Below are positions 30,290 through 56,655 of a stretch of DNA of 64,000 nt, piece after piece. The number at the start of each line of letters is the position of its first letter. The first letter of the stretch is position 1. The position numbers and the translations under genes were made by a program. The notes under the pieces are model-generated. The model was not told the DNA's origin, did no database searches, and was given only the letters and a program-made list of their open reading frames with translations. The stretch is from positions 1 through 64,000 of the IMG/VR virus record IMGVR_UViG_3300034101_003554. The stretch is one strand, 5' to 3'. This DNA is from a virus.

Positions 30290-31672
30290 TTACTTTAGTT
30301 CATATTGGTGAAAAGTAACCTCATAAAACATTACAGGGTAATACTTTTTTTCTTTATACATTTGAGGTCTTCTTAAACTCCTATCAACACACAACCTACC
30401 AGTTGTTTTATATTGTTCTAGTGCGTTAGCGCTACTAGCTTTATATATTGTACCCATATCTATGTTATCAATGATTAATTCCCTACCACTGATAACTGCT
30501 GCCACTTTTGATTTTCCATTGAATTCTGTAGGTGTAATAACAGGGAGTATATTTTTATATTTAATCATTGTTTCCTCATCGACACCCCAAAATAAACCGG
30601 GTTGTCCTTCCATTTTTAATTGTACACCTGGTACTGAAAATTTTTCGTCTTGTTGACCCCTAAAAATTGGAAGTGTTAGTAGACCTATATACGTCCCATC
30701 GGCAAGGTTAATTTTTTCTTTTGGTGGGGTAGGTTCAAATGTGGTTTCAGAATCTGAACTAGTTAATTGTGGAATAAAATCCATTCTCCTAAAAGTTGGA
30801 CCAATTTCTGCTGGGTTTGCACTTCCATCTTGATTTAAATGGTTTACTACACGTAATATAGATTTACCACCATTATCATTTAGTTTAAGTATACCCATTA
30901 TTTTATCCATTAAAGATTTATCAGTAAAAACTTGAGCTAACCTTGGTGCACTATTTTTAATTGTATTTAAAAAAATATTATAAGAAACTTTAGCTCTTTG
31001 TGTTGCTAACCAATCATTTCTTTGAAATAAATTTGTTATACCGTCAAAAACAATATTAAATCCATTATTTTGGTGGTCAGCAGTAATTGTTGCGTCAACA
31101 AAACTAGGGGGACTTCCATCAGCGTGACCTTCAATGATAAAACCATTACCTAAAAATTTTAAAATAGCATTTTTATCTCTACCATTAGTTAAATATACTT
31201 TATTCATTATTTCGACTAATCTTTTTGCCTCTTCTTCCAATTGTTTAACAACAACACTAGTTGGTGTTATTAGATTATTACCAAATTGATTATTTGCATT
31301 AAATGTAAATGTTTGACCTGGAACTGAAATTGGTGGTTTTTGAGTACCCGGAATTGTAGTTTTTGATTTCCATCCTCCACCAAGTCCTGCTAAAACACTT
31401 GAAAATTTCAGGCTAAATTTTTGTTCATTATAAATAACTCCTCTAGCTTGATAAAAATTTAAGTCCCCCTTCATAGACTCAGCCCAATTTGAAAAATCCA
31501 TTTGGAAAAATCCTTCTCTACCTAATTCAACAGCATTCTTTACTGCCCACCCAAGTGGATCATGTTCATTCAAATAAGTCCTTTTTACTTGACTTTCAGT
31601 CATAAGTTGTCCAGGTTTGTATCCCAATAGGAATTTTAATCTATTTAATTCTTCGTTTAAATTATTCTTCAT
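30290..31672 (-). CDS. OmpA-like protein with capsid-targeting leader
   Basis: 460 residues. The leader MKNNLNEELNRLKFLLGYK continues to GQLMTE|S and TYLNE|H, two candidate cuts. Residues ~135-235 look like an OmpA C-terminal peptidoglycan-binding fold: KFLGNGFIIEGHADGSPP, then NDWLATQRAKVSYNIFLN (the GHxD...L...RA pattern). The C-terminal region is beta-rich. A packaged peptidoglycan-binding protein may help penetration. ATATTTATA at 31686-31694 on this strand is 13 nt before the start. Confidence 0.72.
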   Translation of the reverse strand: MKNNLNEELNRLKFLLGYKPGQLMTESQVKRTYLNEHDPLGWAVKNAVELGREGFFQMDFSNWAESMKGDLNFYQARGVIYNEQKFSLKFSSVLAGLGGGWKSKTTIPGTQKPPISVPGQTFTFNANNQFGNNLITPTSVVVKQLEEEAKRLVEIMNKVYLTNGRDKNAILKFLGNGFIIEGHADGSPPSFVDATITADHQNNGFNIVFDGITNLFQRNDWLATQRAKVSYNIFLNTIKNSAPRLAQVFTDKSLMDKIMGILKLNDNGGKSILRVVNHLNQDGSANPAEIGPTFRRMDFIPQLTSSDSETTFEPTPPKEKINLADGTYIGLLTLPIFRGQQDEKFSVPGVQLKMEGQPGLFWGVDEETMIKYKNILPVITPTEFNGKSKVAAVISGRELIIDNIDMGTIYKASSANALEQYKTTGRLCVDRSLRRPQMYKEKKYYPVMFYEVTFHQYELK

Positions 31673-45218: not shown

Positions 45219-45368
45219 ATGTTAGTAATTATTGGTCTTTTATTTTTGATAATTGGAATCTTATTCTTAATTTTGTCTTACAAAACAAAGAACTCAGACT
45301 TGTTTATAGTTGGAATTATATTTCTAATTGTTCTTTTGTTTGGATTTATATATGGTTTAATAATATAG
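45219..45368 (+). CDS. Small two-helix membrane protein
   Basis: 49 residues: MLVIIGLLFLIIGILFLIL, a short polar turn SYKTKNSD, then LFIVGIIFLIVLLFGFIYG. Its stop overlaps the first bases of tRNA-Pro. Function unknown. Confidence 0.6.
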   Translation: MLVIIGLLFLIIGILFLILSYKTKNSDLFIVGIIFLIVLLFGFIYGLII

Positions 45369-45436
45369 GTGTAGCTCAGAGGTAGAGTGCTAGTTTTGGG
45401 AACTAGTGGTCGCTGGTTCAATCCCAGTCACCTATA
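45365..45436 (+). tRNA. tRNA-Pro(UGG)
   Basis: ATAGGTG/CACCTAT acceptor, CTAGT-TTTGGGA-ACTAG (TGG), CTGGTTCAATCCCAG T arm. It overlaps the stop of the upstream membrane protein gene. Confidence 0.92.
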
Positions 45437-45449
45437 CAAGATTTTTAAA

Positions 45450-45523
45450 GGTTCTATAGCTCAATTGGTTAGAGCACCCGACTCATAATCGGTAGGTTCT
45501 AGGTTCAAGTCCTAGTGGAACCA
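45450..45523 (+). tRNA. tRNA-Met/Ile2(CAU)
   Basis: GGTTCTA/TGGAACC acceptor, CCCGA-CTCATAA-TCGGT (CAT), CTAGGTTCAAGTCCTAG. Whether it is elongator Met or lysidine-modified Ile is not decidable by eye. Confidence 0.9.
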
Positions 45524-45538
45524 CAACAATTTTAACAA

Positions 45539-45613
45539 TGTCCTGTAACTCAGTTGGTTTAGAGTATTCGTCTGATACGCGAAAAGTCGTGAGTTCGAGC
45601 CTCACCAGGACAA
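45539..45613 (+). tRNA. tRNA-Ile(GAU)
   Basis: TGTCCTG/CAGGACA acceptor, TTCGT-CTGATAC-GCGAA (GAT), GTGAGTTCGAGCCTCAC T arm. Confidence 0.9.
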
Positions 45614-45621
45614 CAACAAAT

Positions 45622-45694
45622 GTCTCAGTAGCTCAGTGGTAGTAGCCCTTGACTGTTAATCAAGTTGTCGTAGGTTCGAATCCTACCTGGGACG
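45622..45694 (+). tRNA. tRNA-Asn(GUU)
   Basis: GTCTCAG/CTGGGAC acceptor with G73, CTTGA-CTGTTAA-TCAAG (GTT), GTAGGTTCGAATCCTAC T arm. Confidence 0.93.
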
Positions 45695-45710
45695 CAAATT
45701 TTAATAAATT

Positions 45711-45938
45711 ATGGTTAATGTAAAAATTGGTGAATTTAAGGTTGGTGATAAGTTGTTTATTGATTATAGTGAAAATAATCCAAACAATAAACACATCGAA
45801 ATTAGAGCAATTGTGGATATGGAAGTGGTGATTTATTTGGATGAAAAAAATAACTACCATATGGAACCAATTCATTACTTCAATGTGTTATGTAGATGTA
45901 ACTCACTTAAAAAAATAACAAATGAAACGGACAATTAG
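45711..45938 (+). CDS. Small beta-rich protein
   Basis: 75 residues, MVNVKIGEFKVGDKLFIDYS; alternating strands suggest a small barrel. Its end overlaps the next small frame. Function unknown. Confidence 0.62.
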   Translation: MVNVKIGEFKVGDKLFIDYSENNPNNKHIEIRAIVDMEVVIYLDEKNNYHMEPIHYFNVLCRCNSLKKITNETDN

Positions 45939-46035
45939 AAAACCAAGTTCATCCAAGTTTTATGAAATGCTTAGAAATAAGTACAACAACCACATTAAGA
46001 AACAAGAAAATGAAATGGAAGATTCTACAAATTAG
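45922..46035 (+). CDS. Small basic peptide
   Basis: 37 residues, MKRTIRKPSSSKFYEMLRNK then a Lys/Glu-rich helix. It overlaps the preceding gene by 17 nt. Strongly basic; could bind nucleic acid. Uncertain. Confidence 0.45.
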   Translation: MKRTIRKPSSSKFYEMLRNKYNNHIKKQENEMEDSTN

Positions 46036-46077
46036 ATTCCAACCTAAAAAATTTAATTAACAATATATAATTTTCAT

Positions 46078-46587
46078 ATGAAAAAAGAGTTTTTATTTAA
46101 TGATAACATTATTGATTTTGAATTTGACGAAGTAATAGATAAAAAAATAAATGTTAAGGTATTTCACTATTTCAGTAATAATCTTTTATTTGAAAAAATT
46201 GAAGATAGAATAATTTGTCTTAAAGGTATTGGTAAATTATTCTTTCAAGAAGGATTCCCAATTTCATTATCTATTTCAGTATTAAAAGAACAAGGGGTTG
46301 AGGTTAGTATATTACACGTTGCTGATGAATGTTTAAAAAATGGGTGGTCACCAATAACAACATATAATAAATTAAAATCTGACTTTGAAGAAGATATTGA
46401 CAAAGAAAATCATTATGATTTACATTTATTAAAAAAATTTTGTGAATCAAATTATGAAGACCAAAGAGAAATGATATTTGAATATCTGTTTAAATGCAAA
46501 ACTGATGATGTCAGAAATAAAAAAAATGAAAATCCAATAGACTGGTTACAATTACTTGTAACTAGTGGGGCTAAAAATAAACTTTAA
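46078..46587 (+). CDS. Hypothetical protein
   Basis: 169 residues, MKKEFLFNDNIIDFEFDEVI. The N-terminal half is beta-rich and the C-terminal half helical (KKFCESNYEDQREMIFEYLF). No family recognised. It ends just before tRNA-Lys. Confidence 0.65.
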   Translation: MKKEFLFNDNIIDFEFDEVIDKKINVKVFHYFSNNLLFEKIEDRIICLKGIGKLFFQEGFPISLSISVLKEQGVEVSILHVADECLKNGWSPITTYNKLKSDFEEDIDKENHYDLHLLKKFCESNYEDQREMIFEYLFKCKTDDVRNKKNENPIDWLQLLVTSGAKNKL

Positions 46588-46596
46588 CAAGAAAAT

Positions 46597-46671
46597 GACC
46601 CTGTAGCTTAGCTGGTTTAAAGCACAATACTTTTAATATTGGGAGCGGGAGTTCAAATCTCCCCAGGGTCA
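46597..46671 (+). tRNA. tRNA-Lys(UUU)
   Basis: GACCCTG/CAGGGTC acceptor, CAATA-CTTTTAA-TATTG (TTT), GGGAGTTCAAATCTCCC T arm. Confidence 0.92.
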
Positions 46672-46729
46672 CAACACAATAAGTTACGAAAGGTGTTATT
46701 AGAAAATAGTAGACATATTTTTTGACATT

Positions 46730-46846
46730 ATGGGTCTGAAAATAAAAATTAAGGATGGTACGAAAGTTCAGGACTTTGACTGTAAACTAGGAAAGGTAAC
46801 TAAGATACGCGGTCTCGGTTCTATTGGAGTACAATTATCAGTATAG
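46730..46846 (+). CDS. Small KOW-like peptide
   Basis: 38 residues, MGLKIKIKDGTKVQDFDCK then LGKVTKIRGLGSIGVQLSV. The GxVxxI...GxVxL pattern is SH3/KOW-like. Located between tRNA-Lys and tRNA-Val. Confidence 0.5.
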   Translation: MGLKIKIKDGTKVQDFDCKLGKVTKIRGLGSIGVQLSV

Positions 46847-46868
46847 CCCAATCATTCTTTTATAAATA

Positions 46869-46953
46869 GTCCTTATGGTGTAATGGTTAAACATCCCACT
46901 CTTACAAAGTGGAGACGAGAAGTATAATCCTAGTTCGAATCTAGGTAAGGACA
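46869..46953 (+). tRNA. tRNA-Val(UAC) with enlarged variable loop
   Basis: GTCCTTA/TAAGGAC acceptor, CCACT-CTTACAA-AGTGG (TAC), CCTAGTTCGAATCTAGG T arm. The variable region is 16 nt (AGACGAGAAGTATAAT), where tRNA-Val normally has five. Confidence 0.85.
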
Positions 46954-46982
46954 CATTAAATAATTTTTAAATTACAAAAACG

Positions 46983-47231
46983 ATGAAAAAAATATTATTC
47001 CTTGGATTAATTTCTGTATTATTCCTTAGTTGTCAAAGAGAAGGTATAGAAGAACTAAAAACAGATAATGCGAATTATAACGTTGAGCTTCTATTTAAAG
47101 TTGATGGATGTAAGGTCTATCGATTTTGGGATAAAGGATACAAGTATTTTACAACTTGTGATGGATCCGTGACTCATAAACTAAGTGGAAAACACCCCAA
47201 AGATTTGGGAATACAGACAATCGTGAAATAA
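46983..47231 (+). CDS. Small lipoprotein
   Basis: 82 residues. Signal peptide with lipobox LFLSC (Cys ~17), then a small domain with GCKVYRFWDKGYKYFTTCDG, a cysteine pair pattern common in small phage lipoproteins. It should be anchored in the membrane; might be a superinfection-exclusion or lysis factor, but that is a guess. Confidence 0.72.
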   Translation: MKKILFLGLISVLFLSCQREGIEELKTDNANYNVELLFKVDGCKVYRFWDKGYKYFTTCDGSVTHKLSGKHPKDLGIQTIVK

Positions 47232-47237
47232 AGATTT

Positions 47238-47299
47238 GAACAATTAAGGGACCGAGCCTGCCTACAATTTCGGTGTGAGGTGCTAGTAGGTAATTGTTC
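47238..47299 (+). ncRNA. Acceptor-closed mini-RNA
   Basis: 62 nt. GAACAATTA (47238-47246) pairs perfectly with TAATTGTTC (47291-47299). A second stem CCTAC/GTAGG closes a 20-nt loop. Same plan as the RNAs at 43178 and 57196, with no anticodon arm. Confidence 0.5.
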
Positions 47300-47467
47300 T
47301 TTATGTTATAATAGTACCACGAGGCATCCCATAAGAACTGCTCACTACTGTGGTCTTGTTGCTTGTAAACGAATAGCCCAAGGTATAAGTTATGAAGCTT
47401 AACTCAACCTATCCCCCACTGACGAGTGGGGTGAAGTTGGGGGATTTCATATATTTATAGTAAAAAA
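47300..47467 (+). other. Non-coding region with hairpins and late promoter
   Basis: Contains TATAATAG (about 47309) and ACCAC/GTGGT pairing over about 40 nt. A perfect hairpin CCCCACT-gacg-AGTGGGG lies at 47414-47431. The late motif ATATTTATA is at 47451-47459, 8 nt before the ART-like gene. Confidence 0.5.
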
Positions 47468-47926
47468 ATGATGAAAGATTTAAGAATACGTATTAAAACA
47501 ATTTTAAAAGAAGAATTTGAAAATTATACTATAGTATATCGTGGTATTGGAGATAGAATTAACGCTACCTATGGTAAAGTATCTGATGATGGAATGGGTG
47601 TATTTTGGACAGATAATTTAACTATGGCCAAATGGTTTGCTGGACTTATTGATTATTCTGTTGATACTTATAGATATGAAAATATAAAAGGTTCTAAGGG
47701 TAAGATTTTAACTAAAGAAATAAAATTTGAAAATCCATATGTTGTTAATTCAGATGATGAAGATTATGACTCATTTCAAGTTTATATGGATGAAATATAC
47801 AAATTCGGTGGGGTTGACAAATATAAAGAAATGTTAATTGAAAAAAATTATGATGGTATCATATTAAGAAATTGTTCAACAAATTACTATGAAAATGGAA
47901 CTTATGATATCTTTATTGAGTTATAG
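47468..47926 (+). CDS. ADP-ribosyltransferase-like protein with capsid-targeting leader
   Basis: 152 residues. The leader MMKDLRIRIKTILKE|E is followed by an ART-like domain: TIVYRGIGDR (Arg of the R-S-E/H-Y-E fold, ~25-34), GVFWTDNLTMAKWFAG (~54-69), strand LTKEIKFENPYVV, and KNYDGIILRNC (~133-143). This order recurs in phage ART-like proteins. T4 packages and injects the ART Alt with a cleaved leader, an exact precedent. The catalytic Glu is not certain. Confidence 0.68.
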   Translation: MMKDLRIRIKTILKEEFENYTIVYRGIGDRINATYGKVSDDGMGVFWTDNLTMAKWFAGLIDYSVDTYRYENIKGSKGKILTKEIKFENPYVVNSDDEDYDSFQVYMDEIYKFGGVDKYKEMLIEKNYDGIILRNCSTNYYENGTYDIFIEL

Positions 47927-47948
47927 GTAATATAAAAAGAAACAATAG

Positions 47949-48033
47949 GGTTGGGTGGCCGAGTTGGTTAAGGCACTAGTCTGCAAAACTATCGAATGAA
48001 AATTCATCGTGGGTTCGAATCCCTCCCCAACCT
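47949..48033 (+). tRNA. tRNA-Cys(GCA) with long variable arm
   Basis: GGTTGGG/CCCAACC acceptor with T73, CTAGT-CTGCAAA-ACTAT (GCA), long variable arm TGAATGAAAATTCA-like, GTGGGTTCGAATCCCTC T arm. Confidence 0.88.
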
Positions 48034-48042
48034 CAAACAAAT

Positions 48043-48115
48043 GTAGATGTAGCTCAATTGGTAGAGTTGCTGATTCCAAACCAGCCGGTTGGGGGTTCGA
48101 GTCCCTCCATCTATG
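48043..48115 (+). tRNA. tRNA-Trp(CCA)
   Basis: GTAGATG/CATCTAT acceptor with G73, GCTGA-TTCCAAA-CCAGC (CCA), GGGGGTTCGAGTCCCTC-type T arm. Confidence 0.9.
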
Positions 48116-48146
48116 CAAATTTTATCAACAATTAAAACTATTTATT

Positions 48147-48467
48147 ATGGTAAGGGATTACATAATCGAAACATTAACAAAAATCAAAGAACAAGATGAG
48201 AAGGTACACAAGCTCTATACTATGGGAGTTGATTTACTTGACTTTGACAACACCATTTCGCAACTTGAGAAGTCCATTCCGACCATCCTCAGAAAAGAAA
48301 AAGACGAACAATACGGATGGATACAGGATTTAGTTGGTTGGTGGTTGTATGAAAAAATTGAAAAAAAGATTTGGCACGATAAAATTGAATTTAATGTTGA
48401 AAGTGTGGAAAATTTTACCGACTATTTGATAAGAGAGTATGGAACAAATGACATACCAACAAATTAA
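48147..48467 (+). CDS. Hypothetical protein
   Basis: 106 residues from MVRDYIIETLTKIKEQDEK; the frame upstream runs through tRNA-Trp, so the internal ATG is chosen. Helical with several Trp (YGWIQDLVGWWLYEKIEKKI). Similar small proteins accompany phage tRNA regions. Function unknown. Confidence 0.68.
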   Translation: MVRDYIIETLTKIKEQDEKVHKLYTMGVDLLDFDNTISQLEKSIPTILRKEKDEQYGWIQDLVGWWLYEKIEKKIWHDKIEFNVESVENFTDYLIREYGTNDIPTN

Positions 48468-48469
48468 TT

Positions 48470-49102
48470 ATGGCTTATATTGAAAGTAATTTTTTCCCTT
48501 TAAAGGTATATGTTCGAAATGAATATCTATATCAAAATAAGAAGGGATTTGGTGAATTTACTGAGGGTGTTATAATCTCAATTAGATGTTTACCAGGACA
48601 AGCTGCACTATTCCAAGTATTATTTAATAATGGTGTTATGAGAGATAAACTTCCATCTCACGCATTATTAACTGAACCCAAATCACCTAATGTTGATTTA
48701 CCATTCCATTATCTTCAAATATGGAATTGTTTTTCATACAATTTCTCGGTACATCATTTAAGTTATATCTATGATACCAAAGTTTCAGTCTTTATGAAAG
48801 ATAAGAAATGGTATGATGGAAGTTATTATGCCACAATAAATTGGGGTTCTAGTGATTTGAATAGTGATTTTACCTTGGCTGAGGATCCAATGGAACATAA
48901 ATCACATCACATAATACTACTGAATAATGGCCAAATTGCCCTACAACCAAATAATAGAATAAAATGGGCAGAACCATCCTTTGTCACAAAATCTTTCCCT
49001 GAGAAGCCAGATTATTTGGTGAATAAGGATTATTATAATTGTGAGGGGTTCGAGAAATGGCAAACTGAGGATTCTGATTATATGTTTTATGATAATAATT
49101 AA
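48470..49102 (+). CDS. Hypothetical protein
   Basis: 210 residues, beta-rich, aromatic-rich (MAYIESNFFPLKVYVRNEYL). It starts 2 nt after the preceding stop and is followed closely by the SET gene. No domain recognised. Confidence 0.65.
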   Translation: MAYIESNFFPLKVYVRNEYLYQNKKGFGEFTEGVIISIRCLPGQAALFQVLFNNGVMRDKLPSHALLTEPKSPNVDLPFHYLQIWNCFSYNFSVHHLSYIYDTKVSVFMKDKKWYDGSYYATINWGSSDLNSDFTLAEDPMEHKSHHIILLNNGQIALQPNNRIKWAEPSFVTKSFPEKPDYLVNKDYYNCEGFEKWQTEDSDYMFYDNN

Positions 49103-49105
49103 GAT

Positions 49106-49489
49106 ATGTTTTTATATAAAGTAGAAGTTAAAATAGCAACTAATCCTGAAATGGACTTAGGTTTATTCACAAAAGAATTTATCCCAAAAGGAACTATAGT
49201 TTGGGAATTCGTGGAAGGTGTGGATATTAAAATGGATGAAACGACATTCAATAAATTGAACGAAGCTCAAAAAGAATTTTTTGAAAAATATGGGTGGAAG
49301 GAAGATGATGGGTTTTATTATTCCTCTTGTGACTTAACTAACTTTATTAATCATAGTTACAATCCAAATTTAGATGTTGTGGGGGAAATAATAATTTCAA
49401 ATAAAGATATCCAAATTGGGGAAGAATTATTTGAAGATTATAGTCAATTTGATACTGAGTTTCATACTTATAAAAATGAATTTATTTAA
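49106..49489 (+). CDS. SET-domain protein (putative lysine methyltransferase)
   Basis: 127 residues, essentially a bare SET domain. Residues ~18-35 GLFTKEFIPKGTIVWEF, ~76-85 LTNFINHSYNPN (the NHSxxPN signature) and ~103-112 IGEELFEDYS (GEEL.xDY). SET enzymes transfer methyl groups from AdoMet to lysines. No leader or signal peptide, so it acts in the infected cell. No post-SET Cys cluster. Target unknown (phage structural or host ribosomal proteins are options). Confidence 0.85.
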   Translation: MFLYKVEVKIATNPEMDLGLFTKEFIPKGTIVWEFVEGVDIKMDETTFNKLNEAQKEFFEKYGWKEDDGFYYSSCDLTNFINHSYNPNLDVVGEIIISNKDIQIGEELFEDYSQFDTEFHTYKNEFI

Positions 49490-49498
49490 CAAAAAAAT

Positions 49499-50014
49499 AT
49501 GACACCAATGGTAATTGTAAATTTCTATAAACCCTATGATACGACTTGGGAACAACTCCAACTAATGGCATTGGATAAAATTGCCGAACACGAAAAAGAA
49601 ACAAGCGAAGTTGAATTTGGGGATGTCTCCGTTCAACAACAATTTGATGATTATCGTGCAGCTTGTTTTCAAGGGTTAAAAACATTTATAATGCAAGTTC
49701 TAAATGAATGGGGGACTGAAAACATCTTGGTGTTTAATGATAAATTCTATAAGAAATTTGAACATATGGAAATGGAGGGTAGATTAAAAACTTATACAAC
49801 TCCAAATGTTTTCAAAACATCAAAGGAATTATTTAAATGTTTAAAGAAAGAAAAGTTTCAATTAGAACCAGATGATTTTGATTTTATTCACGAAACTTTT
49901 TCAAGTGCTGACGATGTTGTATGTAATATATTCGCGTTTGAATATGAATTAAAAGAAATTGATGATGACAAAGATTGGTTGGATGAGAACGGATTTGGTG
50001 ATATTTTAGAATAA
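49499..50014 (+). CDS. Hypothetical protein with C-terminal DENGFGDILE
   Basis: 171 residues. Alpha-helical, acidic at the end. Its last ten residues DENGFGDILE recur exactly at the end of the next, otherwise different, protein. It is in the SET gene cluster. Function unknown. Confidence 0.65.
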   Translation: MTPMVIVNFYKPYDTTWEQLQLMALDKIAEHEKETSEVEFGDVSVQQQFDDYRAACFQGLKTFIMQVLNEWGTENILVFNDKFYKKFEHMEMEGRLKTYTTPNVFKTSKELFKCLKKEKFQLEPDDFDFIHETFSSADDVVCNIFAFEYELKEIDDDKDWLDENGFGDILE

Positions 50015-50030
50015 AAAAAAAGATAATAAT

Positions 50031-50270
50031 ATGAAAACAATAGGCGTATTAGAAGCATTGAAAGATGAAACAATTAAAAAAGGAGATAAAATAATTATTG
50101 AACTTATTGTTGATGAAATAGATATTGAAAGTATGTACCCATTATCTGCATTTTGTTTTAATCAATATGATGAAATATCAAAAACTAATTATTTTAAATT
50201 GTCATGGAGTACTAAAATAAAAATAAAAGACATAAATGATGAGAACGGATTTGGGGATATTTTAGAATAG
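50031..50270 (+). CDS. Hypothetical protein sharing C-terminal DENGFGDILE
   Basis: 79 residues, MKTIGVLEALKDETIKKGDK, small beta protein. The end DENGFGDILE matches the previous gene at protein and nearly at DNA level (one base change in 30), so it was duplicated recently. Confidence 0.62.
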   Translation: MKTIGVLEALKDETIKKGDKIIIELIVDEIDIESMYPLSAFCFNQYDEISKTNYFKLSWSTKIKIKDINDENGFGDILE

Positions 50271-50272
50271 TT

Positions 50273-50590
50273 ATGAAAAAGAAAAAAAATATATTTACAA
50301 AAGAAATTAAGGTAGCCGATGCTAAGACATCTGTTAGTGAATTAATAAGAGAAACATTAATTAACTTCAGTTGGGGTTTCTTTGGTAATTCAATAGTTGT
50401 ATTTATGGCCAAAGAAATTGATCTTGCCGTATTGATTAATTTTTTATTATATTATATCTTAATATCTTATATTGTTAATCGTGCGAAATATGAAAGTAAT
50501 TTTGGTAAATTCATTGTTTTACCTGGTTCAGCGGCATTAGGAGCATTCACAGGATATAAAGTAGCACAAATTATTTCACAATTTTTGTAA
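50273..50590 (+). CDS. Small membrane protein
   Basis: 105 residues. Basic N-terminus (KKKKNIFTKEIKVADAK), then helices NFSWGFFGNSIVVFMA, LAVLINFLLYYILISYIV and FIVLPGSAALGAFTGYKVA. It follows the DENGFGDILE genes by 2 nt. Function unknown. Confidence 0.65.
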   Translation: MKKKKNIFTKEIKVADAKTSVSELIRETLINFSWGFFGNSIVVFMAKEIDLAVLINFLLYYILISYIVNRAKYESNFGKFIVLPGSAALGAFTGYKVAQIISQFL

Positions 50591-50605
50591 CTAATTTAAT
50601 ATAAT

Positions 50606-50614
50606 ATATTTATT
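50606..50614 (+). promoter_or_regulatory. Late-promoter-like motif ATATTTATT
   Basis: Only 3 nt before the ATG at 50618; an isolated late-type gene within the host-promoter region. Confidence 0.45.
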
Positions 50615-50617
50615 AGT

Positions 50618-51106
50618 ATGAAACTTAATGAAGAAATAAAACGAATAAAAGGTTTAATGTTGGAAAACTCCGACCCTTTCACTATTTCAACAGCGGGTAG
50701 TATTAATATAACACCTGGTCTTCACATATCTATTAATAATGGTGAAGTTAAGATGGGTCATATTAATATGATTGATTTTGATAATGGAAAACATTATGAT
50801 TACTACCTACCAAGACTTTTGTATAATGTTAATGAATATTGTAAATCAAATTGTACTGAAAATTTATTCAATAATAATAACTCAATATATCTACACGATT
50901 TAGAAATTTTTAAACCTTACAGAGGTAAAGGTCTAAGTAATCGTCTAATGGACGAATGTCATAAATTAGGAAAAAATATGGGAGTTGACTACATTATTCT
51001 AATAACTGAATGTAATAATTATGTAGCCCAAAACTTATATAAAAAATATGGGTACGAAATTTATAGTTCAGATGGTATTGAAGACTTATTTTACAAAAAA
51101 ATTTAA
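50618..51106 (+). CDS. GNAT acetyltransferase with capsid-targeting leader
   Basis: 162 residues. The leader MKLNEEIKRIKGLMLE|N is followed by a GNAT fold. HDLEIFKPYRGKGLSNRLMD (~90-110) is the acetyl-CoA loop (RGKGL), and NYVAQNLYKKYGYEIYS (~135-150) is the C-terminal strand. N-acetyltransferases modify proteins, metabolites or antibiotics. With the leader it is predicted to be injected with the DNA. Target unknown. Confidence 0.82.
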   Translation: MKLNEEIKRIKGLMLENSDPFTISTAGSINITPGLHISINNGEVKMGHINMIDFDNGKHYDYYLPRLLYNVNEYCKSNCTENLFNNNNSIYLHDLEIFKPYRGKGLSNRLMDECHKLGKNMGVDYIILITECNNYVAQNLYKKYGYEIYSSDGIEDLFYKKI

Positions 51107-51300
51107 AATAAAGACTCAACAACTTGATTAATTTTTGTAACAAACTTGACCTTTTGTATTATATCGTTATATTTAATAAAAAAATAGTAAAAACTTCACA
51201 AATGAAACACAATCTCTATATGGACTTAACAACTAGAGCTGAGGGTAGAAATCCTCGGATGGAGATGGTATGATATAAGGTTTTAATTGTTAATAAAATC

Positions 51301-51340
51301 AAATCCATCTTCCTAAAAAAAAGATGGATTTTTTTTTTTG
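51301..51340 (+). terminator. Rho-independent terminator
   Basis: AAATCCATCTT (51301-51311) pairs with AAGATGGATTT (51321-51331), followed by a T run. Confidence 0.88.
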
Positions 51341-51346
51341 AGAGTG

Positions 51347-51378
51347 TTTGAAAATGTGAATTAGTAATTGTATCTTTG
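51347..51378 (+). promoter_or_regulatory. Bacteroidota-type promoter TTTG-N20-TATCTTTG
   Basis: TTTG 51347-51350 and TATCTTTG 51371-51378 lie 32 nt before tRNA-Asp. Confidence 0.75.
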
Positions 51379-51410
51379 TGATGTTCATTGAAATTGAGGG
51401 AAAAATATTT

Positions 51411-51485
51411 GGTACCATAGTTTAACGGCAAGAATATAAGGTTGTCACTCTTATGGTAGGGGTTCGATTCCCCTTGGTACCGCCA
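51411..51485 (+). tRNA. tRNA-Asp(GUC)
   Basis: GGTACCA/TGGTACC acceptor with G73, TAAGG-TTGTCAC-TCTTA (GTC), AGGGGTTCGATTCCCCT T arm, CCA encoded. Confidence 0.9.
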
Positions 51486-51502
51486 AAAAAAAGTTTTAAA
51501 AG

Positions 51503-51540
51503 TTGGAACTAAATGAGATGAAGGTTGGTTTATAATAATG
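51503..51540 (+). promoter_or_regulatory. Variant promoter TTGGAACT...TTATAATAATGTAAC
   Basis: Second copy of the element at 42903-42943; the same spacing (about 26 nt) to TAATAATG. Confidence 0.5.
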
Positions 51541-51559
51541 TAACTTAAAAAAATAGATT

Positions 51560-51706
51560 ATGACAAACTTTATGATAAACTTTATTATTCTTGCTATTTT
51601 TATAATGCTTTTGGGTTTTATTGGTAACTATATCATAAAAAAATATCCAGATTCTTGGGTAGCAAAATGGTGGGATGATATGACTGATATTGGTCATTGG
51701 TGGTAA
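51560..51706 (+). CDS. Small single-pass membrane protein
   Basis: 48 residues: hydrophobic MINFIILAIFIMLLGFIG followed by KYPDSWVAKWWDDMTDIGHWW. Homologous in layout and motif to the reverse-strand protein at 4116..4268. Trp-rich C-terminus. Function unknown. Confidence 0.65.
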   Translation: MTNFMINFIILAIFIMLLGFIGNYIIKKYPDSWVAKWWDDMTDIGHWW

Positions 51707-51715
51707 ATTAAAATA

Positions 51716-51844
51716 ATATCTATGTCACGAGATTAAGATGTGACTTACGTTCTAAGGAGTTTACTTATTGTCAATTAGGGCGGACGAAGGCAACATAAGT
51801 TATATTATGGTGACTTGATATTCACCATAACGAATACAAGATAT
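51716..51844 (+). ncRNA. Structured RNA closed by ATATCT/AGATAT
   Basis: 129 nt. Closing pair 51716-51721/51839-51844. GTCAC/GTGAC hairpin at 51724-51744, perfect TTATGGTGA/TCACCATAA hairpin at 51805-51830, and ACTTA/TAAGT-type pairing in between. A terminator follows. Confidence 0.5.
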
Positions 51845-51850
51845 CAAAAA

Positions 51851-51890
51851 GAGAAGTGGAGAGTTCTTATTCAAAACTTCTCTTTATTTT
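51851..51890 (+). terminator. Rho-independent terminator
   Basis: GAGAAGT (51851-51857) pairs with ACTTCTC (51876-51882), followed by TTTATTTT, ending exactly at the next tRNA. Confidence 0.65.
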
Positions 51891-52173
51891 GCCTAGGTGG
51901 TGTAATGGTAGCCACGCAAGACTTAAAAATTTGAGTGCTATTGGTGAAAACCTTTAAGTAGAACTCCGTAAATTCGGTGAAGCCTTTAAAATGGTAATAC
52001 CGAGCCAAGTTCAAGAAATTGAAAAGGTGTAGAGACTAGACACGGAGAACCTAAGTCGAAAGATATGGTTAAGGTATAGTCCAGACCACAAACTGAAAAG
52101 GTGGTGAAAACCATAGTGGTAAGAAAATCTTGTGACCAGTAAGGTCGTGCGGGTTCGAGTCCCGCCCTGGGTA
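51891..52173 (+). tRNA. tRNA-Leu(UAA) interrupted by a group I intron
   Basis: Exon 1 is 51891-51924 and exon 2 is 52124-52173. Joined, they give acceptor GCCTAGG/CCTGGGT, anticodon arm CAAGA-CTTAAAA-TCTTG (TAA), class II variable arm TGACC-agtaa-GGTCG and T arm GCGGGTTCGAGTCCCGC. All arms pair once the intron is removed. The intron sits in the anticodon loop after U34, the same place as in cyanobacterial tRNA-Leu. Confidence 0.9.
51925..52123 (+). other. Group I self-splicing intron in tRNA-Leu
   Basis: 199 nt, no reading frame. Conserved boxes in order: Q-like GGTAATACCGAGCCAAG, R-like GGTGTAGAGACTAGACACGG, S-like AAGGTATAGTCC. The 3' end is G followed by AAAATCTTG of exon 2. The start AAAAATTTGAG resembles the Anabaena tRNA-Leu intron start. 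It should splice by two guanosine-initiated transesterifications. Confidence 0.88.
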
Positions 52174-52195
52174 CAAAAAAAAAGTTTAAAAAAGA

Positions 52196-52227
52196 TTTGG
52201 AATTAAGAAAATCAAATCGTAATTTTG
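52196..52227 (+). promoter_or_regulatory. Bacteroidota-type promoter TTTG-N20-TAATTTTG
   Basis: TTTG 52196-52199, TAATTTTG 52220-52227; ten nt before the tRNA-like RNA at 52237. Confidence 0.78.
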
Positions 52228-52236
52228 TGAGACAAT

Positions 52237-52348
52237 AGTCAGGTGGCGAAATGGTAGACGCACATCCGCAGGTGATTTAGTTTGAGGATACAGCGGCAGT
52301 CGAGGTCACAAACATATACAAATATAGGTTCGAATCCTATCCTGACTA
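52237..52348 (+). ncRNA. Expanded tRNA-like RNA, Leu(CAG)-like loop
   Basis: 112 nt. AGTCAGG/CCTGACT acceptor, D arm GCGAAATGGTAGACGC, loop CGCAGGT flanked by a weak ATC/GAT stem, GTTTG/CAAAC pairing in a ~55-nt region where the variable arm should be, T arm ATAGG-TTCGAAT-CCTAT. Confidence 0.55.
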
Positions 52349-52370
52349 CAAAAAAAAAGTTTAAAAAAGA

Positions 52371-52402
52371 TTTGGAATTAAGAAAATGAAATCGTAATTT
52401 TG
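52371..52402 (+). promoter_or_regulatory. Bacteroidota-type promoter TTTG-N20-TAATTTTG
   Basis: TTTG 52371-52374, TAATTTTG 52395-52402; the whole 40-bp promoter block is nearly identical to the one at 52190. Confidence 0.78.
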
Positions 52403-52417
52403 TGACACAATAAAAAC

Positions 52418-52490
52418 GCACCATTCGACAAGGGGTATAAGTCACCTCCCTTTCACGGAGGAGTCACGGGTTCGAATCCCGTATGGTGTA
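52418..52490 (+). tRNA. tRNA-Glu(UUC)
   Basis: GCACCAT/ATGGTGT acceptor, CCTCC-CTTTCAC-GGAGG (TTC), ACGGGTTCGAATCCCGT T arm. Confidence 0.92.
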
Positions 52491-52543
52491 CAAATCTCAG
52501 AAGTAATTAATCTGGGGCTGAGAGGTTCGAAACTCACGGAAAT

Positions 52544-52641
52544 GATTATGGTGTAGGCGCACGGAAAGATAAAGTATGAGAATGGTAAGTACCCATTAAA
52601 GAAATTGACATCAGGATTAAGGTTCGAATCCTTATTAATCA
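52544..52641 (+). ncRNA. Scrambled tRNA-like RNA
   Basis: GATTA/TAATC acceptor remnant, D-arm-like GGTGTAGGCGCAC, T arm AAGG-TTCGAAT-CCTT. No anticodon arm is evident. A second T-arm-like hairpin TGAG-AGGTTCGAAA-CTCA lies just upstream (about 52519-52534), so pieces of two tRNAs seem mixed. Confidence 0.45.
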
Positions 52642-52651
52642 ACAAACATTA

Positions 52652-52723
52652 TGCAAGGAAGGGCAACGGTCGTCCGCTAGGCTCATAACCTAGAAGCTGT
52701 GGGTTCGATTCCCACCCTTGCGT
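52652..52723 (+). tRNA. tRNA-Met/Ile2(CAU)
   Basis: TGCAAGG/CCTTGCG acceptor with T1-G72 wobble, CTAGG-CTCATAA-CCTAG (CAT), GTGGGTTCGATTCCCAC T arm. Second CAU tRNA. Confidence 0.88.
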
Positions 52724-52732
52724 CAAACAAAT

Positions 52733-52807
52733 TGCAAGATGGACTGGAGGTGGTTCCAGCTCGGTCTCATAAGCCGTACCATGTGGGTTCGACTCCCACT
52801 CTTGCAA
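52733..52807 (+). tRNA. tRNA-Met(CAU), third copy
   Basis: TGCAAGA/TCTTGCA acceptor, loop CTCATAA on a CGGT/GCCG stem, GTGGGTTCGACTCCCAC T arm. D arm GGACTGGAGGTGGTTCC. Initiator, elongator and Ile2 roles may be divided among the three. Confidence 0.85.
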
Positions 52808-52813
52808 CTAAAC

Positions 52814-53048
52814 AACTTAACTAATGGCGGTAACTGATTAGTAAAATAATCGAACTAAAGCAATCTAATGGAAGTTGAGTAGCGTCTAATATAGTAGTTT
52901 TATAATACTTGCACTACAAATGGGTATTAAATTAACAGGTTGGGAATCTGACTACATAATATTAGTGTTAGGTGGACTTAAATAAGTGAACACCTGTGTA
53001 ACGGGTTGAAAACTTTACGATTGAAATGTCGACCATTTGGGTTAAGTT
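52814..53048 (+). ncRNA. Large structured RNA candidate
   Basis: 235 nt. Ends AACTTAAC (52814-52821) and GTTAAGTT (53041-53048) pair perfectly. Inside: ACTAAT/ATTAGT hairpin, GTAGT/ACTAC hairpin and a nested AGGTG-G-ACTTA-aa-TAAGT-gaa-CACCT hairpin (about 52973-52999). No reading frame. Not RNase P, tmRNA or 6S by eye. Confidence 0.5.
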
Positions 53049-53079
53049 CTATTTGTAGTAGAACTTGTAAGTTGTAAAA

Positions 53080-53165
53080 GGGTGTCTATCCAAATTGGTG
53101 AAGGAAGCTGTCTGTAAAACAGTTGCCACGTGCTAAACTTGGGGGTTCGAATCCCTCGGCACCCA
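53080..53165 (+). tRNA. tRNA-Tyr(GUA)
   Basis: GGGTGTC/GGCACCC acceptor, CTGT-CTGTAAA-ACAG (GTA), class II variable arm, GGGGGTTCGAATCCCTC T arm. Confidence 0.92.
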
Positions 53166-53182
53166 CAAAAGAAATGAAACCT

Positions 53183-53275
53183 TACATAGGATGGATTAGC
53201 ACCATTGAAAGAGAACTTGGCTCTCATAGGATCGCAACCTAAATCGAGAGTAATAATGACCCAAGTTGTTATGTA
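53183..53275 (+). ncRNA. Structured RNA closed by TACATA/TATGTA
   Basis: 93 nt. TACATA (53183-53188) pairs with TATGTA (53270-53275). Coaxial AACTTGG/CCAAGTT (53214-53220/53261-53267) and CTCTC/GAGAG (53221-53225/53246-53250) stems. The downstream ~100 nt contains another TATGGG/CCCATA pair. Confidence 0.5.
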
Positions 53276-53377
53276 GGAGACCCTGCTCTACTGTGCACGG
53301 TATCAGGCTATGGGGAACAAACCATCGTAAAACTCTTGCCCATATAATACTTATGGAAGGACTTTCATTTCTAATTT

Positions 53378-53452
53378 GCAGTAATAGCTCAATGGTAGAG
53401 TTCTTGTCTTCCAAACAAGATGTTGCGAGTTCGAGTCTCGCTTACTGCTCCA
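53378..53452 (+). tRNA. tRNA-Gly(UCC)
   Basis: GCAGTAA/TTACTGC acceptor, CTTGT-CTTCCAA-ACAAG (TCC), GCGAGTTCGAGTCTCGC T arm, CCA encoded. Confidence 0.93.
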
Positions 53453-53468
53453 AATTTAAAAATTCATT

Positions 53469-53681
53469 ATGAATCAGTCTGAATTTAGAAATCTTAGAAC
53501 TGGGGATAAAATCCATATTAAGTCTCGTGATGGTTTATATACCTTCTTAACAAAAGACTTTATAACTGGTGAAATTCATATAACTTGTAAAAGATGGAAA
53601 TATGAAGATTCCCCAATCAGAGTAACAAGTTTTGATGATTTCAAATGTTTGGCTGGTGGATTATGGAGAAAAATTATGTAA
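53469..53681 (+). CDS. Small hypothetical protein
   Basis: 70 residues, MNQSEFRNLRTGDKIHIKSR; beta-rich, basic, KOW/SH3-like spacing. Between tRNA-Gly and tRNA-Ala. Function unknown. Confidence 0.62.
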   Translation: MNQSEFRNLRTGDKIHIKSRDGLYTFLTKDFITGEIHITCKRWKYEDSPIRVTSFDDFKCLAGGLWRKIM

Positions 53682-53754
53682 TAGGAGAAAGTAAGTCGGT
53701 TGGTGTATAGCTTCCTTACGTCTAAAATTTAAGCACAATTACATAATACAAAAA

Positions 53755-53831
53755 GGGGGATTAGCTCATTCAGCAAGAGCACTTGTTTTGCACACAAGAG
53801 GTGGTCGGAGCAAAGCCGACATCCTCCACCA
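53755..53831 (+). tRNA. tRNA-Ala(UGC) with abnormal T loop
   Basis: GGGGGAT/ATCCTCC acceptor, CTTGT-TTTGCAC-ACAAG (TGC), CCA encoded. The T stem GTCGG/CCGAC closes AGCAAAG instead of TTCxAxx, so the usual T54-Psi55-C56 is missing. Confidence 0.85.
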
Positions 53832-53860
53832 AAAAATAAACGTTGTTTTAAATTTAATTT

Positions 53861-54466
53861 ATGAAAAAATTTTTAGTATTTTTAGTATTATTTGTATTAT
53901 TGACATCTTGGTCATATACACCCCCACGTAGGGTATTATATATCGGTGATAGTTTAACCTGTGCTCCTGGTGGGTGGCAGGATCAAGTTTCAAAACATTT
54001 TGGATATCAAAGTCTCAATCTAGCAAAAGGTGGTGTTAGAACGGATTATATGAGAACGACAATGAATGCTTGTTTTAAAAAAGATTCAGCTTTCTCTCAG
54101 GTATTCATTTATGGTGGATGTAACGATGCTTTTTCTATGGTAGATTTACAAGGGGCGGTGAATAACATTCAGATGATGGTTGATAGTTGTAATAGAAGAG
54201 GAATTGAACCTATTGTAATTGTGGGTTTTAATCCAGCTCAAGTAACAACAAAGACTGTGTATGACGCAGAAACAACCAAGAGATGTGTTGGAAGATACAT
54301 TGAGTTTCAAAAACTAATGGTTAAAGAAAAAACTGGATTAAAGAATTGTAAAATAATTCCTATGGACACTACAATGTTTTATAGTGATACTTGGGATGGA
54401 ATTCACTTCGCACCTTCTGGACATAAGAAATTTTCTACTTGGGTTATAAATAATATGGAAAAATGA
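53861..54466 (+). CDS. Secreted SGNH hydrolase
   Basis: 201 residues. Signal peptide (MKKFLVFLVLFVLLTSWS). SGNH motifs: YIGDSLTCAPGGW (Ser), AKGGVRTDYM (Gly), FIYGGCNDAF (Asn), DGIHFAPSGH (Asp/His). The sequence parallels the SGNH domain of the packaged hydrolase at 32355. Likely a periplasmic esterase or peptidoglycan O-acetyl esterase. It overlaps the next lipoprotein gene by 4 nt. Confidence 0.85.
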   Translation: MKKFLVFLVLFVLLTSWSYTPPRRVLYIGDSLTCAPGGWQDQVSKHFGYQSLNLAKGGVRTDYMRTTMNACFKKDSAFSQVFIYGGCNDAFSMVDLQGAVNNIQMMVDSCNRRGIEPIVIVGFNPAQVTTKTVYDAETTKRCVGRYIEFQKLMVKEKTGLKNCKIIPMDTTMFYSDTWDGIHFAPSGHKKFSTWVINNMEK

Positions 54467-54714
54467 AAAAAATATTTTGGTTTTCAACTTTAATCACTAT
54501 CTTTGTATCCTGTTACAAACACCCCACAATAGAACCTGGTGATATTGTTAAGAAGTGTGTGATTGATACGATGTATATTACAGAATCTCCATCTACAATT
54601 GAATTTGGTAAAAGATATAATTATAAAACCGATTGTGATGAATTGATAATGACAAGAAGAAGTGATGTATATAAAATAGGGGATACAATAACCTATGTTT
54701 ATAAAAGAAGATAA
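54463..54714 (+). CDS. Small lipoprotein
   Basis: 83 residues. Lipobox ITIFVSC (Cys ~17), then a short beta domain with Cys residues (KKCVIDTMYITES). Coupled by ATGA to the secreted SGNH gene, so the two probably act together at the envelope. Confidence 0.7.
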   Translation: MKKIFWFSTLITIFVSCYKHPTIEPGDIVKKCVIDTMYITESPSTIEFGKRYNYKTDCDELIMTRRSDVYKIGDTITYVYKRR

Positions 54715-54720
54715 TTATTT

Positions 54721-54806
54721 GCCGTTTTCGCATAGTGGTTGATTGCACTGGATTTGTAACCCAGTTCCGTTAGGACACGTCAGTTCGAATCTGACAAACG
54801 GCTCCA
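54721..54806 (+). tRNA. tRNA-Thr(UGU) with long variable arm
   Basis: GCCGTTT/AAACGGC acceptor with T73 and CCA. CTGGA-TTTGTAA-CCCAG (TGT). The variable region TTCCGTTAGGACAC is class-II-like, unusual for Thr. GTCAGTTCGAATCTGAC T arm. Confidence 0.86.
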
Positions 54807-54810
54807 AAAA

Positions 54811-55063
54811 TCCCAATTGATGTAGATAGATTGGGTGGTCTGCAAGCCTCAATTGCCGTATTTGGTTAATATGTTAACCTAACCACGTATTATGGTTAAT
54901 ATGTCACTATAACTAGGGGTCGCCAAGACCAGATTGTTGGCAGTTTACACGAGATAGTCACTCGCATTTTCTACAAAAGGCAAAAAACACTAGTCCGTTT
55001 CTACTGGATGAGGGGGTATTGAAAAAGTGTAGCTAACTTGGAAGATACCCCAAAATTTTTTAA
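54811..55063 (+). ncRNA. Folded ~250-nt RNA with its own terminator
   Basis: Series of hairpins: CCCAAT/ATTGGG (54812-54835), GGTTAA-tatg-TTAACC, GCCAA/TTGGC, CGAG/CTCG, and a terminal GGGGTAT/ATACCCC (55013-55019/55045-55051) followed by AAAATTTTTT. No reading frame longer than a few codons. Short stretches CTAGTCCGTT and TTGAAAAAGTG coincide with the S. pyogenes tracrRNA, but no Cas gene is present. Confidence 0.55.
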
Positions 55064-55104
55064 AAAAAAACATAGGAAAAAGTGAATAATTCAGGAAGAA
55101 CAAC

Positions 55105-55112
55105 TATCTTTG
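55105..55112 (+). promoter_or_regulatory. -7 box TATCTTTG before 55143
   Basis: TATCTTTG 31 nt before the ATG; the -33 region is weak. Confidence 0.4.
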
Positions 55113-55142
55113 TCTTATTAATCACTGAAACACATAATCACA

Positions 55143-55373
55143 ATGGCTAAAGAGAAAAAAACAATCCAAGTTGAGTTATTAAAAGAATTCGCAAACAACT
55201 ATTTGGCTATTCCAATGGTTTCTATCCAAGAAAAAATGGGCATTATCACAATGATTGAAAAGGTTCTACATGAATCCAATGCTTATAAAGGCTATATGTA
55301 TTTGAAACTTGAAGAAAACAATACCCCACCAGCATTTGAAACTGAGGGGTGGGTAACAAGAAAATATTTTTAG
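55143..55373 (+). CDS. Small hypothetical protein
   Basis: 76 residues, MAKEKKTIQVELLKEFANNY, helical, acidic C-terminus. Stands alone after the folded RNA. Function unknown. Confidence 0.65.
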   Translation: MAKEKKTIQVELLKEFANNYLAIPMVSIQEKMGIITMIEKVLHESNAYKGYMYLKLEENNTPPAFETEGWVTRKYF

Positions 55374-55488
55374 TGGTTGTGACACCTAATAATTCACAAG
55401 TAGTGGTTGACACTTAGAATGTTACCTGACTTTAAGGTTTGGAATAGAAAAACCGAAAACTTTTAAAACTTTTAAAACTTTGAATATT

Positions 55489-55752
55489 ATGGCACTTATT
55501 TATGTAATCTTGGATAGCAACGATAGAATTCCTATTCTAACTGCAAGTAGTATTGAAAAAGCTGAATTACTTTTGAATCAATATATGGGTGTTGAAGGTC
55601 CTATATTTGATGAAAGTGTTGAGTATATAGGTTTTGAACCATTTGATGACAGAGGTTATTACACAATTTATGAAGGCGAATACAAATATAAGACAGAAGA
55701 TGGTGAACAAAGATTCATGAGATATTGTATGGGATTAGATAGTTTAGATTAA
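55489..55752 (+). CDS. Small hypothetical protein
   Basis: 87 residues from ATG 55489 (MALIYVILDSNDRIPILTAS); an upstream TTG is possible but unlikely. Acidic alpha/beta protein. The TTTTAAAAC repeat precedes it. Function unknown. Confidence 0.62.
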   Translation: MALIYVILDSNDRIPILTASSIEKAELLLNQYMGVEGPIFDESVEYIGFEPFDDRGYYTIYEGEYKYKTEDGEQRFMRYCMGLDSLD

Positions 55753-55798
55753 AAATTATGGTAAAGATTGTAATTTTGTGAACTATTTTTTATTCTAA

Positions 55799-55807
55799 AT
55801 ATTTATT
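55799..55807 (+). promoter_or_regulatory. Late-promoter-like motif ATATTTATT
   Basis: 15 nt before the capsid-targeted gene at 55823; a host-like TAATTTTG (55771-55778) also lies upstream, so this gene may have two promoters. Confidence 0.45.
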
Positions 55808-55822
55808 ATTAAAAATAAAACT

Positions 55823-56272
55823 ATGAGTAAAGAAATGAGGAAATTTATAGACGCATTCAAAAAATTCAATTTGAATGAAAGTGTTACTAATGTATATAAA
55901 CGAGATGATGATGATGATGATTCACCTATTATAATTGAAGGTGAAATAGAATATGATGATGATGTATTTTATTACAAAGTCGAGTATCACGATGATTTCG
56001 GATATAAAGTATTTGAAGTAACATCAGAAGAAAATGAAGATGTTGAAGATTTTTTTGATGATGATGAATATGAAGAATTATTAGGTTTAATAATTGATGA
56101 TGTAAAATCAGAAAGATATAAAGAAAAAGAAATATCCACTAAGTGGGTTGCTATTGATACCAGAAATGGTAGAGTAATACACAGAAGTAAAAATCATATT
56201 GATAGAAAATTTGTTGCTGAATTGTATGATATACCAAAATCTTTTATAGAAATTAAAATAGAGACAAGGTAA
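55823..56272 (+). CDS. Acidic capsid-targeted protein
   Basis: 149 residues. The leader MSKEMRKFIDAFKKFNLNE|S is followed by strongly acidic sequence (KRDDDDDDSPIIIEGEIEYD). The C-terminal end is basic and beta-rich (KWVAIDTRNGRVIHRSKNH). Function unknown. Confidence 0.68.
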   Translation: MSKEMRKFIDAFKKFNLNESVTNVYKRDDDDDDSPIIIEGEIEYDDDVFYYKVEYHDDFGYKVFEVTSEENEDVEDFFDDDEYEELLGLIIDDVKSERYKEKEISTKWVAIDTRNGRVIHRSKNHIDRKFVAELYDIPKSFIEIKIETR

Positions 56273-56284
56273 AAATTATTACAC

Positions 56285-56337
56285 ATAACATAAATATATA
56301 TGTAACTTTTAGTCCTATGGCGGAAGTAGACGCTGTG
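56285..56337 (+). repeat. 53-bp direct repeat, copy 1
   Basis: Identical to 57017-57069. It covers the 5' flank plus acceptor and D-arm part (AGTCCTATGGCGGAAGTAG...) of two expanded tRNA-like genes. Confidence 0.85.
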
Positions 56338-56452
56338 GTGCAAATCCACTTAGCCCAAAGGGGGTTACAATATAGAGGTTCAATTCCTCTACTGGCACGG
56401 ATGTGTCAGATTGGCGTTGTTGTAAATACAGGTTCGAATCCTGTCAGGACTA
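56311..56452 (+). ncRNA. Expanded tRNA-like RNA with two T arms (142 nt)
   Basis: Acceptor AGTCCTA/CAGGACT, shortened D arm GCGGAAGTAGACGC, outer T arm ACAGG-TTCGAAT-CCTGT, and an inner complete T arm AGAGG-TTCAATT-CCTCT at about 56376-56392. It looks like one tRNA 3' half inserted into another tRNA. Confidence 0.55.
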
Positions 56453-56487
56453 CAAAATAAATTTTTTAACAAACTTAAATTTTAATT

Positions 56488-56655
56488 ATGAGTGATTTAG
56501 AAACAAAACTTCAAATTTTACAAGAGCAATTAAAACTCAACAATGAAAAACTTGAACATATGAGAGATGAAATAAAGTTTAGTAAAACTTTTATTTATTT
56601 TGATTTAGCATTGTTGGGATTAATTTTGTTATACGTAATTTTGTTTGTAATTTAA
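56488..56655 (+). CDS. Small coiled-coil membrane protein
   Basis: 55 residues: coiled coil LETKLQILQEQLKLNNEKL, then hydrophobic helix FDLALLGLILLYVILFVI. Spanin-like or holin-like in size but unassigned. Confidence 0.6.
   Translation: MSDLETKLQILQEQLKLNNEKLEHMRDEIKFSKTFIYFDLALLGLILLYVILFVI

Follow-up and report, generated by a model that had tools for sequence, protein, structure and literature searches.

The open reading frame described here lies in the opening 64 kb (64,000 nucleotides; hereafter the window) of the 141,041-base virus record IMGVR_UViG_3300034101_003554. It encodes a predicted acetyltransferase of the GNAT superfamily with a short N-terminal leader, is preceded by a TATTTAT box and is bounded by direct repeats (Table 1). 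The same record codes for a portal protein, a terminase, a Gp23 capsid protein (Gp23 2e-73) and an S77 prohead protease (at and around 83642-84064; E 1.8e-23; phrog_207 2.6e-42), which has H93 and S156/S157 in common with T4 gp21. Judged by sequence, the source is a T4-like environmental phage, whose nearest isolated relative, going by the capsid protein, is phage immuto.

Table 1. Features of the GNAT locus and of other leader-bearing genes in the window.
Feature	Position	Strand	Basis or remark
Left copy of 12-bp direct repeat AATTTTTGTAAC	50580..50591	.	one copy at the empty site in L043, L044
TATTTAT box (ATATTTAT from 50606), late-promoter-like, putative promoter	50607..50613	+	upstream of GNAT; motif tests
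GNAT open reading frame	50618-51106	+	162 aa, uninterrupted from ATG to TAA
16-residue leader MKLNEEIKRIKGLMLE, candidate capsid-targeting propeptide	50618..50665	+	leader scans, conservation; modelled helix 3-16
GNAT acetyltransferase domain, residues 17-162 and stop codon	50666..51106	+	profile, model and fold matches
Acetyl-CoA pyrophosphate loop RGKGLS, residues 102-107	50921..50938	+	R102 and G105 invariant across all three lineages
Right copy of direct repeat AATTTTTGTAAC	51130..51141	.	bounds GNAT cassette
Unrelated 460-aa protein, same leader type (MKNNLNEELNRLKFLLGY...QLMTE|S), TATTTAT box	30290..31672	-	leader pattern
Leader (MMKDLRIRIKTILKE|E) and ART-PolyVal-like domain, TATTTAT box	47468..47926	+	relatives' profile matches
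Third leader-bearing gene of the tRNA-rich region (MSKEMRKFIDAFKKFNLNE|S), TATTTAT box	55823..56272	+	leader and box

Profile matches and a structural model together place the product in the GNAT superfamily, with the GNAT fold and an acetyl-CoA loop. Pfam Acetyltransf_1 (PF00583) covers residues 86-146 (E 2.3e-9; 38 bits, cut-off 20.7), and phrog_3810 matches the protein at 3e-8. The complete acetyl-CoA loop (YRGKGL) claimed in the preliminary description was recovered at residues 101-106. Acetyl-CoA loops follow the consensus Q/RxxGxG/A; the GNAT loop reads R102-G-K-G105-L-S107, with S107 at the G/A position. The best AlphaFold2 model, built from a five-sequence alignment, has a mean pLDDT of 77.3 and a pTM of 0.69 (remaining four models, 40-62); in it, residues 3-16 form a separate helix and the GNAT sheet begins at residue 22. 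Foldseek against the PDB returned 467 matches at E<=0.001, in structure alignment 906 out of 999 chains reached Z>=8, and the best match in a Foldseek viral search was a GNAT of Tenacibaculum phage PTm1. With VIA-align, the model superposes on 2r7h_B (Z 13.8, rmsd 1.7, 113 aligned) and, through residues 20-162, on residues 1-146 of the RimI chain 5isv_A (Z 13.7, rmsd 1.9, 109 aligned), which leaves residues 1-17 beyond the usual GNAT domain. In most superpositions, solved GNATs cover the model from residue 18-22 on, usually via their own first residues, and the enzyme therefore probably begins at about the proposed cut. This agrees with the leader LMLE|N that had been placed ahead of the enzyme: LMLE occupies residues 13-16, N17 follows, and the GNAT domain starts at that boundary. 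RimI and the Naa N-terminal acetyltransferases rank high among its neighbours by fold and by sequence, although sequence identity to RimI is low (16%). No substrate class was singled out by the fold neighbours, many GNAT subfamilies tying within 1-2 Z.

The leader recurs elsewhere. Viral contigs were scanned with a degenerate DNA pattern for NEEIKRIK, with the reversed peptide at equal degeneracy as control, and the pattern was found in 33 stretches as compared to 1 for the reversed peptide. Counted by hand, 18 of these matches sit clearly at an N-terminus, 5 stand behind an ATG but within an open frame that is much longer, and the other 10 are internal. Under a mechanical rule that asks for an ATG within 12 codons, 23 of the 33 qualify, representing 16 distinct N-termini, whose downstream sequences are mostly unrelated to each other. 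Among all contigs examined, some handles denote one and the same contig (L029 = L037; L043 = L054; L044 = L056). Within the window, the leader pattern occurs twice, in the GNAT and in the minus-strand gene 30290-31672, against 0.01 expected from 100 shuffles. By these counts, the NEEIKRIK-type leader on the GNAT is not a product of chance, and the view that the GNAT N-terminus is a modular leader common to unrelated phage proteins is supported. In phage immuto, none of 172 ORFs passes a mechanical leader rule, although by eye a handful of its N-termini resemble leaders. Five loci (L005, L013, L015, L026, L032) carry NEEIKRIKSLF...RLYGNL[IV]NE within open frames some 980-1330 codons long; these may encode polyprotein-like fusions that the prohead protease would cut. 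In L017, a leader-like NEEIKRIKNLMLIK is found at the C-terminal rather than the N-terminal end of an 883-codon frame.

Relatives of the GNAT itself were reached via the leader scan and an alignment scan of viral contigs, and three lineages were found: the window protein, a near-identical group of four contigs (L009, L012, L029, L035), and L038. A scan of viral contigs with peptide patterns of the GNAT alone returned no close relatives, the patterns missing the existing ones; none were found among annotated phages, where the L038 protein gave a single match at E 0.5, or in genome contigs. Leader identity to the window GNAT is 15/17 in the four-contig group and 13/17 in L038, compared to 80/135 and 43/136 for the remainder (32-59% in the enzyme part). 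Among changed codons, synonymous and nonsynonymous changes number 5 and 2 in the leader and 37 and 55 in the rest versus L012, and 4 and 4 in the leader and 19 and 93 in the rest versus L038. The leader is more conserved than the enzyme and its codon changes are richer in synonymous ones, in keeping with purifying selection acting on it.

The three lineages also bear on catalysis. Y141, the usual GNAT tyrosine of helix 4, is present in the window GNAT and the L009 group and replaced by M in L038. The T4 proteins Ip1-3 inhibit by binding, not by catalysis. A GNAT that is packaged and injected to act as a binding inhibitor of this kind, with a fold that is no longer catalytic, would accord with the missing tyrosine in L038, with S107 in place of the usual G/A, and with the inhibition of type IV restriction enzymes by Ip1-3 in the available text of PMC12373910; such a role nevertheless seems very unlikely, given that the R102/G105 loop is retained in all three lineages and Y141 in two of them.

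A TATTTAT box precedes the ATG by 11-12 nt in all three lineages (11 nt in the window). When window genes were sorted by hand, the box lay within 40 nt upstream of 19/29 leader genes versus 3/48 others; these genes were hand-chosen from 101 picked ORFs (24 were dropped, mostly short, antisense or tRNA-overlapping), and since the motif was discovered in the same set, p-values on that set are partly circular. This applies to the tRNA-rich 42-64 kb, where the box stands before 3/3 leader genes and 0/27 others (p 2.5e-4, partly circular). With the mechanical leader rule, it is found at 13/20 leader genes and 12/58 others in the window (p 0.0005), and at 10/13 versus 6/21 in the independent phage L038 (p 0.008). 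Across the leader-scan loci, the difference is not significant under this rule (10/23 versus 29/99, p 0.14), nor in comparison to all other ORFs of these loci (8/16 versus 40/122, p 0.14). In the phage's own head region, the rule gives 0/1 leader genes versus 7/14, and in loci without an N-terminal leader 0/1 versus 2/93. In phage immuto, 23/172 ORFs have TATTTAT upstream, those for terminase, portal and structural proteins among them. As the leader-gene element, the T4 late promoter TATAAATA was considered and rejected, since it showed no enrichment (2/29 leader genes versus 4/48). We read TATTTAT as a putative late promoter; if the box at the GNAT is a −10 element, the mRNA would be nearly leaderless, the box being 11 nt from the ATG.

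Leader and box together weigh on the alternative that the protein is an ordinary cytoplasmic GNAT, produced during infection, whose N-terminal helix is an unrelated extension. Phage GNATs already known, Rac among them, are produced within the infected cell (PMC7552054, available text), and the gene is located in a tRNA-rich region amid leaderless genes. However, the same leader is found on unrelated proteins, the leader is conserved more strongly than the enzyme, and the TATTTAT box is common to leader genes, which makes this alternative unlikely.

Packaging as in T4 would involve the prohead protease. S77 was found in 5/17 leader-bearing records versus 0/11 others, a weak co-occurrence (p 0.063), and Gp23 in 4/17 versus 0/11, most of these records being fragments. 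The capsid protein of the window phage contains LINE|A, whose E60-A61 matches up in alignment with both T4 gp23 and the Flavobacterium phage immuto protein, at what we take to be the T4 gp23 cut position. According to the accessible parts of PMC9026906, L/I-X-E is the motif after which T4 gp21 cleaves, and the first 10 residues of IPIII are enough for packaging. The proposed GNAT cut, E16|N17, reads M-L-E|N and thus departs from the strict motif, as does M-M-E|N in L038; a strict match, L-N-E5|E at residues 3-5, occurs earlier in the leader and is an alternative candidate cut. Met at P3 is seen in 3/37 cleavage sites marked by eye in the window phage and L038, a count that leaves out 9 of the 29 window leader genes as having no clear site. 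The earlier suggestion that the GNAT is injected, and could acetylate host transcription or defence proteins, is upheld in part, its injection and host targets being predictions: the GNAT fold, the intact loop, the modular shared leader and the T4-type prohead protease speak for it, whereas M-L-E|N departs from the L/I-X-E motif given in the available text of PMC9026906.

The GNAT gene is an accessory one-gene cassette that is polymorphic between close relatives. The sister contigs L043 (mostly about 99% identical) and L044 (93-99%) align on both flanks and lack the GNAT: exactly the 550 bp between the AATTTTTGTAAC copies at 50580 and 51130 are absent, and a single copy remains. The GNAT is found in 0/56 loci carrying the neighbour gene 50273-50590 (two of them with too little downstream sequence), and in L099 another leader-box gene comes after this neighbour. 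The surrounding part of the window (42783-58705) holds 24 tRNA genes by ARAGORN, one of them with an undefined anticodon (56665-56738). In T4, ipII and ipIII sit among other small genes and ipI adjoins the tRNA cluster, a layout like that of the GNAT. SET-domain proteins are not known to be common in phages; one without a leader (PF00856, 2.3e-12) is encoded at 49106-49489 inside the tRNA-rich region.

The accessory nature of the gene is also informative about where a packaged GNAT would act. It could work within the particle and have no function in the host; during maturation, it would then acetylate head proteins, DNA-associated proteins or polyamines. The leader evidence (33 matches versus 1 for the reversed peptide; 23/33 N-terminal by rule) holds equally for this option, and some window leader proteins look structural or cell-wall-acting, e.g., 32355-33932. 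However, the gene is absent from sister contigs and therefore dispensable for head building, and T4 packaged accessory proteins act in the host, as described in the available parts of PMC12373910 and PMC9026906. We assign a low probability to purely in-particle activity.

Other leader-bearing genes encode diverse products. The protein encoded at 47468-47926 has no Pfam match itself, and a PDB sequence search with it found nothing; its relatives match ART-PolyVal at 5e-8 and 1e-12, with a third, at 2.6e-4, below the cut-off. Among the relatives L045-L050, some have no leader and others a different one. On these matches, the gene is a candidate for a second packaged protein-modifying enzyme. The product of 32355-33932 combines the leader with GDSL lipase, peptidoglycan-binding and SLT transglycosylase domains in a single protein. 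In L038, a PAP2 phosphatase domain follows the same leader type (MLLNEEINRIKNLM) at 18618-19223, a further candidate enzymatic cargo. Many more window proteins begin with other short leaders that have a Glu motif at the end. Window positions 1-39500 form a dense gene array with several leader types (MKIIIxERQLRxII, MKRIIRLTExDLxKLVKRVIxE, MxxRKxxLIxExxLLLExxxLxEQ, and others), which suggests dozens of packaged proteins.

The reading that we favour, with moderate confidence, is that the GNAT is an accessory cassette resembling the T4 internal proteins, with an enzyme as cargo, which would be expressed late, packaged, clipped and injected. Packaging is the well-supported part of this prediction, given leader sharing, leader conservation and T4 precedent. 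The GNAT would be expressed late from its own TATTTAT box; its amphipathic N-terminal helix would bind the prohead core and draw the protein into the head, where the S77 protease encoded in the record would cut after E16, so that the mature enzyme starts at N17. Ejected with the DNA, the GNAT might then acetylate an amino group in the host, most probably that of a protein, at a time when early phage genes have yet to act. A broader proposal is more tentative, but has a real chance of being right: in this phage group, a TATTTAT box and a short leader may constitute a portable tag that sends dozens of unrelated cargoes into the head, with at least two protein-modifying enzymes, an acetyltransferase and an ADP-ribosyltransferase, co-injected and swapped as one-gene cassettes.

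The nearest known systems are described in PMC9026906, PMC12373910, PMC7824862, PMC5512222, PMC7552054 and PMC3012670, as far as their available text goes. T4 IPI-III have a capsid-targeting sequence, are cleaved by gp21 and are injected, whereas presence of the GNAT in virions is a prediction. The likeness lies in a short leader at the N-terminus with a Glu motif at its end, in a genome with a T4-type S77 protease and Gp23, and in accessory genes near a tRNA cluster that are present or absent among relatives. The leader of T4 IPII/III, MKTYQEFIAE, differs from that of the GNAT, which has Met at P3 and a GNAT enzyme as cargo; compared by eye only, both are short, start with MK and have a Glu site. 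T4 Alt is a packaged, injected protein-modifying enzyme, and the GNAT would be of the same sort. However, Alt transfers ADP-ribose and not acetyl groups, and ADP-ribosyltransferase-like chemistry is represented here by the leader gene 47468-47926. Rac of phiKMV-like phages, set beside the window GNAT by description, is likewise a phage GNAT altering host proteins and acts on host transcription, but it is made inside the cell, and the available parts of PMC7552054 describe no capsid leader on it. GNATs of polyvalent proteins are predicted to be injected and often lie beside ART domains (PMC5512222, PMC7824862, in part). These GNATs are mostly found within large multidomain proteins, in contrast to the single 146-aa domain after a 16-aa leader seen here; the 162-aa chain has one GNAT domain and a leader, whereas polyvalent proteins have at least two disparate domains per chain.

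Injection of packaged proteins is known, and GNAT injection has been predicted earlier for large multidomain proteins. The literature searched, to the extent of its available text and with subscription papers mostly outside its scope, described neither a single-domain GNAT that is packaged nor these leader strings; neither a GNAT standing alone after a capsid leader nor this leader family was found there. In T4, a 10-residue tag loads proteins into the phage head, and the well-studied natural cargo is a small set, an ADP-ribosyltransferase together with three inhibitors. A leader family that can be read from sequence in environmental phages would allow the injected proteins of uncultured phages to be listed and tested. 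If the acetyltransferase is indeed injected, protein acetylation would join host takeover ahead of the reading of any phage gene.
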